From a virus, in IMG/VR virus record IMGVR_UViG_3300010371_000028, positions 1-64,000 of that record: a stretch of DNA of 64,000 bases. The stretch is one strand, 5' to 3'. This document shows positions 57,032 to 63,111 of this stretch, piece after piece. Below the pieces are notes generated by a model. That model had not been told where the DNA came from. It searched no databases and saw only the letters and a program-made list of their open reading frames with translations. The stretch's first letter is position 1, and each line of letters begins with the position of its first letter. The translations under genes and the position numbers were made by a program.

Positions 57032-58516
57032 GTGGCTACCAATGCAGAGAAATCGGCGTTAGCCGAACGGGCTTTCCTGGCACGCCTCGCCGAACTTGGC
57101 GTCATGCCGGACTACGAAAAGTGGGAGGGCACGGGGCGCCCCCACAAGGCAATCTGCCGTGTGGGCCACGAGTGCTATCCGTACCCCTCCGCGATCCGCA
57201 AAGGAATCGGGCCGTGCAGAGCCTGCGCCGGGCAGGACCCGCGCATGGCAGAGGCGGCGTTCCGGAACCGCCTCGCCGAACTGGGAGCCGCCCCCGTCTA
57301 CGACACCTGGCTCGGTGCGCGCAAAGGCCATGCCGTGATCTGCAAGAACGGGCACGCGTGCCATCCGACGCCCGATGCGATCCGCGCAGGAAACGGTCCC
57401 TGCAACACCTGCGCCGGCACGAACAGTGCGGCGGCCGAACGGAACTACAAGGTCCGGCTCGCTGAACTCGGAGCCGCGCCCGCCTGGACCGCCTGGATCG
57501 GCGCCGCGAAGCCTCACAAGGTCATGTGCCCGCAAGGGCACGAATGCTCCCCGATCCCTTCGGGCGTCATGGGAGGCAAAGGCTTATGTCGGACATGCGC
57601 CCGGCTCGACCCGCTGGTAGCCGAAGTCGCATTCCGACGGCGCCTCGACGAACTCGGCGTCGTCGCCGAATGGGCAACGTGGCGCGGCAATCACGCCAAG
57701 TACCAGGCAACCTGCGCTGCCGGGCACGAGTGCTGGCCGCGCCCTGACCACTTGCGGCGAGGCGACGGGCCCTGCCGCGCCTGTGGGAAGTGCGACCCCG
57801 TCGAGGCCGAGGCCCAGACCCGGCGTCGGCTGGAAGCATCCGGCTTCACGCCGGCTTGGGAACAGTGGGTCGGTGCAGGCCGCCCCCACAAAGTAGCCTG
57901 CCCGGCCGGACACGAGTTCCCCATGTACCCGTCCGCGCTGGCGCGGAGAGGGTGTACGTGCCCTCATTGCGCCGGCACGACTCCGGAAGCGATCGAGAGC
58001 GTCTTTAGGGATGCCGTCGTGAGGCAGGGCGCCACCCCAGCGTGGGGCAGTTGGCTAGGGAGCAGCCAGGGCCACAGGGTCATCTGCAAGAACGGGCATG
58101 TGGTCTACCCCAGGCCGAACGGTGTCGGGCAGGGGCGTGGCGTCTGCCGGTTCTGCAAGGGCCGGGCTTGGGACGTCTTCTACGTCGTGGTCAACGACGT
58201 GAAGCGCGAACTGAAATTCGGGATCACGAGCGGCGACCCCCGGGGGCGCCTTGCCGTCCACAGGAACCGCGGCTTCTCGCATGTGGCCCTGATCGCCGCG
58301 ACTCCGCTGGCCCTGAAGATCGAAACCGCGACGAAGAGAGCCCTCCGCGCCGCCGGACACCGGCCCGCCCACGGCAGGGAGTACTTCGGCCTTGACGCCC
58401 TGGAAGAAGTCTTACAGGTGGCGATCAGCTACGGACTCGAAGCCGGGATCAGTCGCGAAGACTGGCCAGGGCGTCCTGGGACGGCTCTCGCCTTACGGCC
58501 GAGCCTTGCATGCTGA
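57032..58516 (+). CDS. GIY-YIG-like endonuclease with six zinc-finger repeats
   Basis: A 494-residue protein. Residues 1-375 hold six copies of a 62-residue unit: 'F..RLaElGa.P.w..W.G....HkviC..GHec.P.p.......G.C..C'; first Cys residues at 42, 104 and 166 show the period. The C-terminal domain (about 380-470) matches T5orf172/GIY-YIG: VFYVVVND, LKFGITSGDPRGRL, and a Glu in KIETATK (E431). Probably a homing endonuclease with an array that reads a long DNA site. It opposes the late genes, has four TTA codons, and overlaps the protease 3' end by 68 bp. Confidence 0.8.
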   Translation: MATNAEKSALAERAFLARLAELGVMPDYEKWEGTGRPHKAICRVGHECYPYPSAIRKGIGPCRACAGQDPRMAEAAFRNRLAELGAAPVYDTWLGARKGHAVICKNGHACHPTPDAIRAGNGPCNTCAGTNSAAAERNYKVRLAELGAAPAWTAWIGAAKPHKVMCPQGHECSPIPSGVMGGKGLCRTCARLDPLVAEVAFRRRLDELGVVAEWATWRGNHAKYQATCAAGHECWPRPDHLRRGDGPCRACGKCDPVEAEAQTRRRLEASGFTPAWEQWVGAGRPHKVACPAGHEFPMYPSALARRGCTCPHCAGTTPEAIESVFRDAVVRQGATPAWGSWLGSSQGHRVICKNGHVVYPRPNGVGQGRGVCRFCKGRAWDVFYVVVNDVKRELKFGITSGDPRGRLAVHRNRGFSHVALIAATPLALKIETATKRALRAAGHRPAHGREYFGLDALEEVLQVAISYGLEAGISREDWPGRPGTALALRPSLAC

Positions 58517-58973
58517 CCCCGCGGATCTTGCCGCTCTTGATGAGTTCCCAGGTCTCCGGGGTCCACTGGATCCCCAGGAGCCAGTCCCCGGACTTGATCG
58601 TCTGCGTTGTGCCGTCGGCTGCGGTCAAGTGCCAGTCGGGGCCGCGATAGACATACGATTCCACAACGTTGCCGCTGCCATCCGTGCCCTGCTGATGCCA
58701 CAGCCCCACCGAGCGCGACTTCAGCATGTAGGACCACGCCGCATCCTCGACCGCCTGCGGGCCTGCGAAGTCGCGGAAGCCGTCCGCGGCCACGCCGGCA
58801 TCCGGCTTGTTCGCTGGATACGCGACGTGCAGGGTGAAGCGGCGATCAGGCTGCGACTTCACGACGCGGGCGGCGATGCCCATGCCGTCCCATACGTCAG
58901 GCTGCGCGTCCTTGACGACTTCGCCGCCGTCGATGACCACGCGCTCGGTGCCGTCTTCGATAGTGACGCGCAG
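58449..58973 (-). CDS. XkdF-type prohead protease
   Basis: About 174 residues from CTG 58973 (163 from GTG 58940). The blocks FTLHVAYPANKPDAGVAADG, WSYMLKSRSVGLWHQQGTDG, SYVYRGPDWHL, and GDWLLGIQWTPETWELIKSG then GVSMQGSA match XkdF-type phage serine proteases. It matures the head scaffold. The CTG has AGGAG six bases upstream and gives a natural start (RVTIEDGTERVVIDGGEVVK); GTG 58940 has no ribosome site. The HAD gene before it ends with TAG in the same frame. Confidence 0.8.
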   Translation of the reverse strand: MRVTIEDGTERVVIDGGEVVKDAQPDVWDGMGIAARVVKSQPDRRFTLHVAYPANKPDAGVAADGFRDFAGPQAVEDAAWSYMLKSRSVGLWHQQGTDGSGNVVESYVYRGPDWHLTAADGTTQTIKSGDWLLGIQWTPETWELIKSGKIRGVSMQGSAVRREPSQDALASLRD

Positions 58974-58982
58974 ATGCAGCTC

Positions 58983-59603
58983 CTACCTGGTTTCGAGCCG
59001 GGTCAGCAGTTCGGTCCAGTCCGCGAAGGCGCGGACGTTCGGGTACTGCCGCCAGGATTGAGGGGTCCACGGGCGTATCGGCGTCCACACGTCGACACCG
59101 GGCCGGGCGATGGTGAGCCACTTCGCGGGGTCATCGTCGATCAGGACGGCCGGATTCATGGGCCCTCGGGCGGCGAGCGCCATCGTTTTCGATGTGGGAC
59201 CGTCGAGGATCTGCCCGTCGCGCGGCACCGCGCTGGCGTCGAGCCACTTTTCAGTGGCGGGCGCGGTGGACGCCGGGCGGTCCGAGGCGATGAGGACCCG
59301 ATGTCCGGAAGCGCGCACGGTTCGCAGCGCCGCGATGGCTTCGCGGTCCGGGGCGAGGTTGAGGATCCACGGGTCGCGTGCGGATTGGGCGAGCAGCCAT
59401 CTCTTCTGGTCTGGCTCGAACAGGTTCACGTACGGGTAGGCGCGCATGTCCGAGACAAGATGCGAGGAGCCGAAGCGCGCGTTGACTGCGGTGCAGCCGG
59501 CTTCGACCTCCTGCGCGAGTACGTTGTCGATGTCGCACACCACGAGCGGTCGTGTCGCCTCGGCCGCGAAAACGGCACCGAGATCCACGCGGCCTCCCGT
59601 CAA
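58983..59603 (-). CDS. HAD-family phosphatase (5'-nucleotidase-like)
   Basis: A 206-residue protein. VVCDIDNVLA at about 21-30 is the HAD motif I (DxD), a cap region follows, then VLIASDRPAS (motif II), and NPAVLIDDDPAKW (motif IV Asp pair). This resembles NT5C-type nucleotidases or polynucleotide phosphatases. Inside a head-gene operon this is unusual. Its TAG stop is in frame with the protease ORF that follows. Confidence 0.75.
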   Translation of the reverse strand: MTGGRVDLGAVFAAEATRPLVVCDIDNVLAQEVEAGCTAVNARFGSSHLVSDMRAYPYVNLFEPDQKRWLLAQSARDPWILNLAPDREAIAALRTVRASGHRVLIASDRPASTAPATEKWLDASAVPRDGQILDGPTSKTMALAARGPMNPAVLIDDDPAKWLTIARPGVDVWTPIRPWTPQSWRQYPNVRAFADWTELLTRLETR

Positions 59604-60076
59604 CGGCGGTCGTAGTCGTGCAGGTGCAGCGAGCGCTTGTGCACGTGCGGCCGATAGCCCAGGGTCCGCAGTAGCTGGGACAGGCGGGTATCGAGCCGGT
59701 GCCAGTCCTTGGCCGGGGACCCGTCGCCATCTACATCACCGAGCCGGCCCATGAGACCGGGATGGCGAGTTTTGAGCCTGCCCGCCAGTTTCACGCAGCC
59801 GAGCCCGTCCTGGAGCCACGTGTGCTCGATCCGGTACGGGCTTGTACACCACGGCCGGGCGCAGGCCCCCATGGCGGCGGTAACACCGTCGGCCGGAAGC
59901 ATGTCGTGCTCGATGAGGATCAGGTCACCTGGGCGGTCCCATTCGGCGGCGAGGAGGCGCCAGTAGGCTTCGACGTCTGCGTCGAGTTGGCAGATTCTCG
60001 CACCCTCGGCCTGCGCCCACCTGCGGGTCGCTTCGTGCAGCATGCCGGGTGCTGCCGCAACGATGGCCACCGTCAC
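59600..60076 (-). CDS. Glycosyltransferase-like protein
   Basis: A 158-residue protein. The start TVAIVAAAPGMLHEATRRWA, DLILIEHDMLPADGVTAAMG (an acidic 'EHD' like a GT-A DxD), and LGCVKLAGRLKTRHP and DWHRLDTRLSQLLRTLGYRP match small phage glycosyltransferase-like proteins. It may modify capsid or DNA. GTG 60076 overlaps the portal stop (GTGA). Confidence 0.6.
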   Translation of the reverse strand: MTVAIVAAAPGMLHEATRRWAQAEGARICQLDADVEAYWRLLAAEWDRPGDLILIEHDMLPADGVTAAMGACARPWCTSPYRIEHTWLQDGLGCVKLAGRLKTRHPGLMGRLGDVDGDGSPAKDWHRLDTRLSQLLRTLGYRPHVHKRSLHLHDYDRR

Positions 60077-63000
60077 ACCATGTCCGATGCGCCGAGCCGG
60101 TACCTGACCACCTCGCTGTCGCCGCGATGGACGGACAGGTGCGTGAAGGTCACGGGCAGCGCCGGCAGCGGATCCGGCAGGCTATCACCAGCATCGACGT
60201 AGGCCCTGGTGACGTGCGGATGCCAATCCGCGTGCTCGCTGGCCGAGAGGTCCGCTAGGTTCGCTCGTAGTTGCTCGGCGCCGGGGAGAGTGACTCCGGC
60301 CCATACGACGGTCTTGCCGTCGCTGGAGTCGGACGGTTCGAAGGTGCCGAGTCCCGAGACGATTCCCGTCAGCGGTCCCGGCGCGGACGCGGCGGCTCGT
60401 GCGGCGCGTGCGCACGCGAGCGCGAACGCGTCGTCGTCGACGTCAGGCCCGAGATATGCGACGGTCACATGGAAGTCGGCGACTCCGCCGGGGACCGGCT
60501 CGATCAGCGCTTCAGGCAGATCCAGCGAGATCATTCCCGATTGCGCGTTAAGACTGTATCCGCGCGCTGCTTTCACCGTGTCCGAGGAGTCCTCGGCGGG
60601 GACGAAACGGCAGGAGCAGCGGCAGTTCGGGCCGCCGAGGCACACGTTTCCTCCGAACCCGCCGTCCCCGGGCCAGCCGGGCAGCGTCTTGAGTGTGAAC
60701 GTCTTGCCCGCCCGGTCGACGCAGGGCCCGCAGTGGTCCTTCGCGTCCCCGAGTTCCCACACGATCGTGTAGGTGGGGTGCGCGTCCATCACGGTTCGGC
60801 CGTAAGCCTGGTTGTACGCCTTGTACAGGGACGCGGCGTACTGGGCGAGACGCGCCCCGATCGCGGCGAGCGACAGTCCCGCGACGACGTCCTGGATCAG
60901 CCCCATGAGGTAGCCGCGCTGCCGTTCGGCTTGCTCGCCGGCATCGTCGTCGAGGTCGTCCTCGTCGATGGGCGGAGTGTCCTCGTAGTCTCCGGACGCG
61001 TCCGTCGTGCCGGCTGCCATCGCCTTCCGGTACCCGGCGGCCATCGCCCGCACTCCGCCGTCGACGGCGTGCGGAAGGGACAGGCCCGCGTTCTTGTGGT
61101 CGCGCACCAGTTGTCCGAGGTGCGCCGCCACGGCTGCGGCAGCCGCTTCCAGGTGTCGTTCGCGCCGTTCCTGCCGCTGCTTGGCGTCGGTGGCGTCCTT
61201 CGCGGCCTTCACTGCGGCGGGCACGCCCTGCGGGAGCATCCGAGCGGCAGCTTCCACGGCTTCGACGGGAAGCGCTTCGGGTCGGAACCGGGCAAGGTCG
61301 CGGCCCTTGCGCAGGTAGCGGCCGAGGATCTCAAGCTCCGCCTTCTGTGCGGCTTGTTCGGCGGCCTGCGCCTCCGCGTCTGCTGCGCCTGCGCTGCCGG
61401 GGGTGTCCGGCAGTCTTTGCGCCGCCTCGTGCGCCGGTGTCGTCAGCGAGTCGTCCGAGACCTGCGCCGACGCGTCCGGTACGGCGCCGGGCACGCCCGG
61501 GGCCTGGGGCTGTTCGCTGGCGATCGCCGAGAGCGGTACCGGGCCGGTGGCGGTGAACACGAGCGGCACCGAGGTCTCGGGCAGCCCGAACGGCGTCCAC
61601 CCGAGTTCGCCGCGGAACTCGTCGATCGTCTGCACGCCGCCCTGGGTCAACTGCACGCCCTGGTCGATCAGCGACTGCCGGTTCTTGCCGCGGTCCGTCA
61701 GGCCCCAGGACCATTCCATGTCCTTCTGCCCGAAGACTTCCCGGATCACGAAGTCGAAGATGACGGTCTTGAGTGCCGCGCACACCGGTTCAACGCGGGT
61801 CTGCGACCCCTTGTCCGAGTTGATCTGGGAGAGTTCCTTGGATTCGGACGGCGACTGCACTGCGGAGACCCGCGGGGTGACGCCGAGGTCCATCGGCGTC
61901 AGGCCGAACGGCATCGCCACCTGGGAGATGATCCACTCATCGAACTGGTCGGCGAGCGCGACCGGCTTCTGCGCCTCGGCTTTCGACCCGGGCGGCAGCA
62001 CCACGATCCGGTGCTTCGCCCCGATGTCCCCGGCCATCGCGTTCAGCGCATCCTGCAACTGCCGGATCTGCTGCGGGGTGGAGATGTCCGGGCCCGGCGT
62101 AATGAACTGCCCGGGAATGGAGCCGTCGGTGAAGTAGTCGTTCTGGAACTGCTGACGCGCCAGACCGATCGAGATCGGGAGGAGCGCCTTCTCCACGAGC
62201 GACTGCCCGTACGGGGTGAACGCGCGCGGCGTCTCCCTCATGTAGATCAGCTGGTCGGCGCGGAAGTCCGCGACGGGCTCGCTGAGTTCTTCGAGGTCGT
62301 CCCCGTTGATGACCGACAGGAGGTCGACGCGGGGTACGCCCCACACGAACTGCTGGTAGCCCACGGCGGACGGCCTCGGCGTCTCGCCGAGCGTCGAGAT
62401 CAGCGGCCTGACGGTGGACCCGTCGATGAGGTTGAGCGCGGCGAGGTCGGAGCCGAACGGGCCGGCGCCCTTCTTGCGCGGCGGCACCAGGTGGATCGCG
62501 ACGGCGTCGAGGACGAACCGGTCTTCGAGCAGCGCGCTCAGCCACGCCCCGAGGGTCGGATACTTGGCGCGGTCGGAGTCGGGGTGGCTGAAGAAGTCGA
62601 GGACGATCGCGCGCCGCTTCTCCCAGTCGGCCCGCAGACTCTCGTCCCCGGCCATGGCGTGCTCGGCCTCAGGCGTGGGAATCACGTCGGGTTCGAGACC
62701 GATGATCTCCGCCTTGCGCTTGTCGACGCAGGAGCGGGCAACCGAGTACATGTCGGCGACGGCGCGCAGCGTCGCGAACGGCGCGAGCTTGAGTCCTTCG
62801 CTGCCCGGCTGCCCGACGGGGAGGTTGTAGCCGGGCTCGTACTGGTATCGGCGGACGTCGGGCCGGTGGGTGTCCTCGCGCGGCGGGTCGATCGGCATGG
62901 CCGTGACTGGCGCCATGGGGCCGAACGCGCCGTTGAGGAACACGGGGGCGGGCCGGGGCAGCGGCGAATACGGCACGGAGGCGCTGTAGCCCTGCCCGTA

Positions 63001-63111
63001 TGACGCGACCAGCGGCGAGAGTCCGCCCTGGCCGGTGCTGCCGCTACTGCCGGCGTTGTTCGCTGCGGCGAGTACGGCTGCCGCGATCGCGTTCCCTTTC
63101 GGCACGGCCAC
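60073..63111 (-). CDS. Portal-MuF-2H phosphoesterase fusion
   Basis: A 1012-residue protein. (a) Portal, about 60-520: 'RVADMYSVARSCVDKRKAEI', 'LLSVINGDDLEELSEPVADF', 'SIGLARQQFQNDYFTDGSIP', 'FDEWIISQVAMPFGLTPMDL'. (b) Linker rich in Ala, Pro, Gln. (c) MuF-type domain about 690-860, with Cys residues in DHCGPCVDRAGKTF and CLGGPNCRCSCRF. (d) 2H phosphoesterase about 865-1012, with HVT at 881-883 (FHVTVAYLG) and HVT at 966-968 (WHPHVTRAYV), 85 apart, as for LigT/2'-5' ligase-type enzymes. ATG 63111 is chosen. Confidence 0.88.
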   Translation of the reverse strand: MAVPKGNAIAAAVLAAANNAGSSGSTGQGGLSPLVASYGQGYSASVPYSPLPRPAPVFLNGAFGPMAPVTAMPIDPPREDTHRPDVRRYQYEPGYNLPVGQPGSEGLKLAPFATLRAVADMYSVARSCVDKRKAEIIGLEPDVIPTPEAEHAMAGDESLRADWEKRRAIVLDFFSHPDSDRAKYPTLGAWLSALLEDRFVLDAVAIHLVPPRKKGAGPFGSDLAALNLIDGSTVRPLISTLGETPRPSAVGYQQFVWGVPRVDLLSVINGDDLEELSEPVADFRADQLIYMRETPRAFTPYGQSLVEKALLPISIGLARQQFQNDYFTDGSIPGQFITPGPDISTPQQIRQLQDALNAMAGDIGAKHRIVVLPPGSKAEAQKPVALADQFDEWIISQVAMPFGLTPMDLGVTPRVSAVQSPSESKELSQINSDKGSQTRVEPVCAALKTVIFDFVIREVFGQKDMEWSWGLTDRGKNRQSLIDQGVQLTQGGVQTIDEFRGELGWTPFGLPETSVPLVFTATGPVPLSAIASEQPQAPGVPGAVPDASAQVSDDSLTTPAHEAAQRLPDTPGSAGAADAEAQAAEQAAQKAELEILGRYLRKGRDLARFRPEALPVEAVEAAARMLPQGVPAAVKAAKDATDAKQRQERRERHLEAAAAAVAAHLGQLVRDHKNAGLSLPHAVDGGVRAMAAGYRKAMAAGTTDASGDYEDTPPIDEDDLDDDAGEQAERQRGYLMGLIQDVVAGLSLAAIGARLAQYAASLYKAYNQAYGRTVMDAHPTYTIVWELGDAKDHCGPCVDRAGKTFTLKTLPGWPGDGGFGGNVCLGGPNCRCSCRFVPAEDSSDTVKAARGYSLNAQSGMISLDLPEALIEPVPGGVADFHVTVAYLGPDVDDDAFALACARAARAAASAPGPLTGIVSGLGTFEPSDSSDGKTVVWAGVTLPGAEQLRANLADLSASEHADWHPHVTRAYVDAGDSLPDPLPALPVTFTHLSVHRGDSEVVRYRLGASDMV

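Follow-up and report, generated by a model that had tools for sequence, protein, structure and literature searches.

A predicted LigT-like 2H phosphoesterase domain as apparently exchangeable cargo on a viral portal–MuF chain

The fusion protein and its domains

The window analysed here comprises the first 64,000 bases of the 132,777-base virus record IMGVR_UViG_3300010371_000028 of IMG/VR, a record that is possibly incomplete. Close to the end of the window, a single open reading frame (ORF) on the minus strand, continuous in the record and opening with a GTG codon, encodes a protein in which a portal domain, a MuF-like head domain and a 2H phosphoesterase domain are joined in one chain. An earlier note on this DNA, made from the letters alone and referred to below as the original prediction, had given the length, strand and coordinates of this ORF, all of which agree with the computed ones. 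The protein and its parts are as follows.

60073..63111, minus strand: portal–MuF–2H fusion protein, 1012 amino acids, GTG start (Pfam, PHROG)
61477..62859, minus strand: portal domain, about residues 85–545 (PF04860 and phrog_2662)
60592..61194, minus strand: MuF-like head domain, about residues 640–840, ending in CxxC...CxC (motif and Foldseek; no Pfam match)
60091..60564, minus strand: 2H phosphoesterase domain, about residues 850–1007 (PF13563, AlphaFold2, Foldseek and PDB profile match)
60463..60471, minus strand: first HxT motif, H881-V-T883 (invariant in 29 of 29 domains)
60208..60216, minus strand: second HxT motif, H966-V-T968 (invariant in 28 of 28 complete domains)

The C-terminal domain is matched by PF13563 at residues 881–992 (E 1.6e-7; 31.9 bits against a curated cut-off of 27), and a search of the entire 132,777-base record with this family returns a single place, the fusion protein. 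The AlphaFold2 model of residues 845–1012, computed with 18 relatives (pLDDT 90.2, pTM 0.84), places H881 and H966 in predicted beta strands (model residues 37–44 and 122–128, respectively), with the two HxT motifs 85 residues apart. This bears out the original prediction of a 2H domain with strand-borne motifs at precisely these histidines and spacing; the structure prediction and the comparison with LigT and Acb1 that it had proposed yielded a 2H fold and not another one. Both motifs are retained in all 28 complete domains (that of the window included), and a 29th, cut by the end of its contig, retains the first, while the identity of the relatives to the window domain falls from 72% to 26%. 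Because both motifs are intact throughout the complete domains, the 2H site is probably catalytic. The conserved tetrad would imply a metal-independent phosphodiesterase, its predicted geometry following from the placement of the strands and the fold match.

To judge from the model, the closest affinity of the domain is to LigT and cyclic phosphodiesterase (CPDase), not to Acb1, the phage anti-CBASS nuclease. In a Foldseek search of the PDB, the CPDase of D. radiodurans ranks first (E 5.6e-7), with E. coli LigT at 1.9e-6, both at a probability of 1.00; the next matches are Usb1 and viral antagonists of RNase L, and Acb1 is 33rd (E 1.5e-3). The same search also matched a Burkholderia phage BCSR5 phosphodiesterase (a 2025 PDB entry), for which we found no literature. 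LigT-type proteins are likewise the best matches in a profile search of PDB sequences, and the top two alignments shown (1vdx and 2fyh, LigT-like) span both HxT motifs. The equivalog model for RNA 2',3'-cyclic phosphodiesterase, TIGR02258, is not reached (17.5 versus 65.7 bits). The motifs of Acb1 (H44/H113) are 69 residues apart (PMC9117128), as opposed to 85 here. On the strength of its structural rank and the difference in spacing, Acb1 was rejected as the best filing for the domain. The original prediction had drawn the comparison with Acb1 and anti-signalling; the anti-signalling part is plausible, and already in print for this architecture, but Acb1 itself is the weaker match.

The portal assignment of the original prediction is confirmed by PF04860 (residues 280–501, E 6.8e-10), whose score of 39.1 bits lies exactly at the Pfam cut-off, by the PHROG 2662 portal profile (residues 85–673, E 3e-41) and by the presence of a gene for the terminase large subunit just upstream, beyond the window (record 64443–65921). 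For the MuF-like part, which had also been proposed, the evidence is of another kind. PF04233 does not match the fusion protein, and Pfam gives no MuF there. The region nevertheless has a motif in common with its relatives (WxLG, CxxC, LPGxPGDGxFGG, CxC), and Foldseek matches a medium-confidence model of residues 561–1012 (pLDDT 72.7) to phage head-morphogenesis and minor capsid proteins. A profile built from MuF domains of other relatives gave no clear match to the region in the window (hhalign probability 62%, no significant match in hmmsearch); closer relatives were needed. When the MuF region alone served as query, nothing was returned in the viral-contig scan, nor by tblastn on phage genomes.

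Architectures of the related fusions

Two scans with an alignment of 2H domains identified 14 viral loci and 7 loci in bacterial genomes, and a scan with the portal added more. The order found in the window, portal–MuF–2H, recurs in L062 and L064, the latter having a ParB-like stretch ahead of its 2H domain. In L010 (the same locus as L004) and L012 the order is portal–2H–MuF. The chains of L014/L076 and L015/L070 read portal–MuF–(ParB-like)–2H–tail, and that of L084 reads portal–MuF–2H–NUDIX, with the portal split over two frames. The ParB-like stretches of L014, L015 and L064 were judged by their resemblance to L048/L072, where PHROG 1033 matches.

The 2H domain is also found outside the portal chain. 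It is accompanied by an ADP-ribosyltransferase domain in the gene after the portal in L053 (6780–11378) and L073 (9438–12035), occurs in large non-portal proteins (L008, L009, L011, L013 and L016), and is attached to capsid proteases, as 2H–XkdF in Arthrobacter phages and as S78 protease–2H in a Streptomyces locus (L024), with L025–L027 alike. The 2H–XkdF proteins of L002, L006 and other Arthrobacter phages (gp18–20) are recorded as "RNA ligase" or "aldolase class I", and both labels look wrong.

Further peculiarities were seen in individual chains. In L012 (1944–6263), an intein-like insert, to which LAGLIDADG_3 gives a weak match, breaks up the portal of the portal–2H–MuF protein. In L036 (5848–11859), portal, MuF, NUDIX and zeta toxin are combined in a chain of 2003 amino acids.

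Exchange of cargo on the portal chain

Relatives of the window portal were found in 59 viral loci, most of them 41–63% identical to it. No 2H domain is present in the nearest two of these, L029 and L030, which are 62% identical over the portal. The protein of L029 is 62.5% identical over the portal, and a single alignment of 49% identity spans residues 7–928, such that the portal and the MuF-like region are kept; its C-terminus is unrelated and matches PHROG 16493. Similar 2H domains occur on portals that are only 27–45% identical to that of the window, where they either follow MuF or separate it from the portal. The 2H domains of L010 and L012, which occupy the latter position, are 64–68% identical to the window's; in L010, a domain of 67–68% identity accompanies a portal of only 27% identity.

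The exchange can be followed side by side in L070 (5923–10563) and L071 (1–4161), whose portals are 81% and whose tails are 82.5% identical, and which carry at the same place a 2H domain and a NUDIX domain, respectively. NUDIX is present on 16 of the 42 scanned C-termini of related portal chains, one of the 16 also bearing a zeta toxin, and none was found in the 132,777-base record of the window. We do not claim strict mutual exclusion of the two domains, since both are present in the chain of L084. In a portal tree (FastTree, midpoint root), read for their placement and not for a number of gains, the 2H fusions are scattered. Because the closest portal relatives lack the 2H domain, similar 2H domains sit on distant portals, and 2H and NUDIX replace each other in L070 and L071, the 2H domain appears from these sequence comparisons to be swappable cargo. 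An effector domain that is attached to portal or MuF and differs between relatives is what characterizes virion-packaged polyvalent or effector fusions, and this pattern is found here.

In L030 (5863–8642), the portal and MuF-like parts, which form one chain in L029, lie in two reading frames; a sequencing error, a pseudogene or a frameshift could each account for this.

Gene order and neighbours

Downstream of the fusion gene lie the following genes.

59600..60076, minus strand: ORF of 158 amino acids, no family match, sharing 4 bases with the end of the fusion gene
58983..59603, minus strand: HAD/NT5C-like phosphatase (Pfam, PHROG), a neighbour not specific to 2H fusions
58449..58940, minus strand: XkdF-type capsid maturation protease (Peptidase_S78_2; PF14550, E 5.8e-15)

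On the minus strand, the genes run 5' to 3' from the terminase large subunit through an ORF of 146 amino acids, the fusion gene, the 158-residue ORF and the phosphatase to the protease, which is the arrangement of a normal head-gene module. The 158-residue ORF has no match in Pfam, PHROG or NCBIfam, so that its earlier description as glycosyltransferase-like finds no backing, and its one homologue among the compared loci is in L030. The nucleotidase of the original prediction corresponds to the phosphatase, the second gene after the fusion; it matches an HAD/NT5C-like family in Pfam below the cut-off (E 2.8e-4) and PHROG 415, "polynucleotide kinase", at E 4.8e-8. A tie between it and the 2H domain did not hold: homologues adjoin the 2H-less portals of L030, L031, L032, L040 and L043, and no homologue turned up next to a 2H fusion in the compared loci. 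A single system composed of the phosphatase, the 158-residue gene and the 2H domain was rejected, as the synteny does not track 2H.

Within the head operon, on the opposite strand (57032–58516, plus), lies an endonuclease-like gene of 494 amino acids (PHROG 681, E 1.7e-20; PHROG 559, HNH). About six zinc-ribbon-like repeats can be made out in it by eye, and it is possibly a homing element.

Proposed role and competing explanations

In our estimation, the somewhat better than even reading is that the portal–MuF chain carries, as exchangeable cargo, a LigT-like 2H phosphodiesterase that is probably active and would cleave a host phosphodiester of nucleotide type, thereby blunting defence. Portal rings consist of 12 subunits, with their C-terminal parts facing the capsid lumen. 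As part of the portal subunit, the 2H domain would be made late and built into the head in up to about 12 copies, which would face the lumen. It may then be released, perhaps by the XkdF protease, and ejected with the DNA, or it may act in the cell late in infection. Candidate host substrates are cyclic oligonucleotide signals, 2'-5' oligoadenylates, ADP-ribose 1'',2''-cyclic phosphate and 2',3'-cyclic phosphates, and cleavage of such a nucleotide would blunt host defence. A nucleotide substrate is favoured over RNA repair by the exchange with NUDIX and by the co-occurrence of 2H and NUDIX in L084; the absence of an RNA ligase (PF09414), RtcB and KptA from the possibly incomplete record also points in this direction.

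Several points weigh against this proposal. Delivery is its weak step: portals normally stay in the particle, and ejection of a portal-fused domain would therefore need cleavage or some other route. The data single out no one substrate, and the MuF assignment is drawn from a motif and a medium-confidence model. A bolder version, which we put forward very tentatively and consider doubtful, is that portal–MuF serves as a standard carrier, its docking slot taking up a small enzyme that hydrolyses nucleotides. 2H and NUDIX would then be alternative cassettes against one host pathway, perhaps one of cyclic nucleotide, ADP-ribose or NAD-derived signals, such that every particle would deliver a counter-signalling enzyme of its own before phage gene expression.

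Alternatively, the cargo could be directed at RNA, healing the 2',3'-cyclic phosphate ends produced by defence RNases (anticodon nucleases, toxins) or serving as a Usb1-like RNase, an explanation that we regard as possible but unlikely. Its attraction is that the closest folds, LigT and CPDase, are RNA 2',3'-cyclic phosphodiesterases, that Usb1 matches as well and TIGR02258 does so weakly, and that the second gene downstream encodes a phosphatase resembling a polynucleotide kinase family; moreover, an RNase role for such fusions is proposed in the text of PMC5512222. The phosphatase, however, keeps company with 2H-less portals, and the swap with NUDIX hints at nucleotide chemistry, though RNA caps, too, are substrates of NUDIX enzymes. 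The expected repair partners, RNA ligase (PF09414), KptA (PF01885) and RtcB (PF01139), were all absent from the 132,777-base, possibly incomplete record, for which reason an RNA-repair cassette built of 2H and such partners was rejected; a search of the record for Rnl1 (PF09511), run without a positive control, gave no match.

That the domain is a dedicated anti-CBASS enzyme, functionally an Acb1, seems improbable. The two have the 2H fold in common, the Acb1 structures 7t26 and 7t27 match at E of about 1.5e-3, and the viral library contains two predicted Acb1 proteins that match. Against this, structures of the LigT type match far better, the HxT motifs are differently spaced, and the family libraries returned no model named Acb1 (it was not checked that they include such a model). 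Still harder to sustain, and in our view very unlikely, is a purely structural role, in which the domain would decorate the portal without catalysis or aid folding or assembly; attachment to an essential structural protein would suit it, but both HxT motifs are invariant in the complete domains down to 26% identity, and the closest portal relatives do without 2H while others bear NUDIX in its place. A chance motif or annotation artefact is refuted by the independent Pfam, PHROG, PDB-profile and structure matches, the continuous ORF and the recurrence of the fusion in other contigs.

Comparison with known systems

Fusions of this kind have been predicted since 2017, and the papers we found contain no experimental test of them; by such fusions, enzymes may reach the cell with the head, of which they are a part, and not by expression there. 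The pair L070/L071 offers a natural matched pair for studying cargo function and a possible shared target. Several phage proteins of this sort are publicly labelled "RNA ligase", an annotation to be treated with caution.

The text of PMC5512222 (2017) describes 2H domains fused to MuF or portal and proposes, besides an RNase role, the degradation of defence nucleotides. That of PMC9503650 (2022) likewise reports 2H fused to MuF or portal, considers such domains to be probably packaged and injected, and lists NUDIX fused to MuF, portal and capsid protease. Both the fusion and an anti-signalling role were thus already known, and the original prediction rediscovered the idea independently. The present analysis adds the specific protein, its affinity to LigT rather than to Acb1, and the side-by-side exchange of 2H and NUDIX; an exchange on one backbone was not found in the passages of the two papers that were compared (figures and supplements being outside this comparison). 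The fusion in the window is real, well formed and ordinary for its class, and is a useful test case. It belongs to the same architecture class as the published polyvalent 2H–MuF and 2H–portal fusions, for which the same use has been proposed (packaging, injection, action on nucleotide signals or as an RNase), and differs from those described in the two texts in that 2H is the only recognised cargo and stands at the extreme C-terminus of a single portal–MuF–2H chain.

As to the enzymes themselves, E. coli LigT (5ldm) and D. radiodurans CPDase (5h7e) have the same fold and HxT/HxT tetrad and provide the best structural and profile matches, but they are only about 20% identical to the window domain, which is fused to a virion protein and does not attain the TIGR02258 cut-off. 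Acb1 (PMC9117128) is likewise a phage-encoded 2H protein with an HxT/HxT tetrad; it is a weaker structural match, a compact separate protein with the shorter motif spacing, and not a portal fusion.

Among head proteins, the Arthrobacter phage gp18 "RNA ligase" (PHROG 14859), for example that of Salgado, bears a homologous 2H domain in a head-gene module; there, however, the domain lies at the N-terminus of an XkdF-like protease domain and not on the portal. The Arthrobacter phages Sonali and Mufasa8 possess a related portal with an enzyme domain in one chain, portal–NUDIX–MuF. Their cargo is therefore NUDIX (the Sonali motif was recognised by eye, and one Mufasa8 record reads MutT/NUDIX), and it is inserted between portal and MuF, whereas in the window the 2H domain follows MuF.

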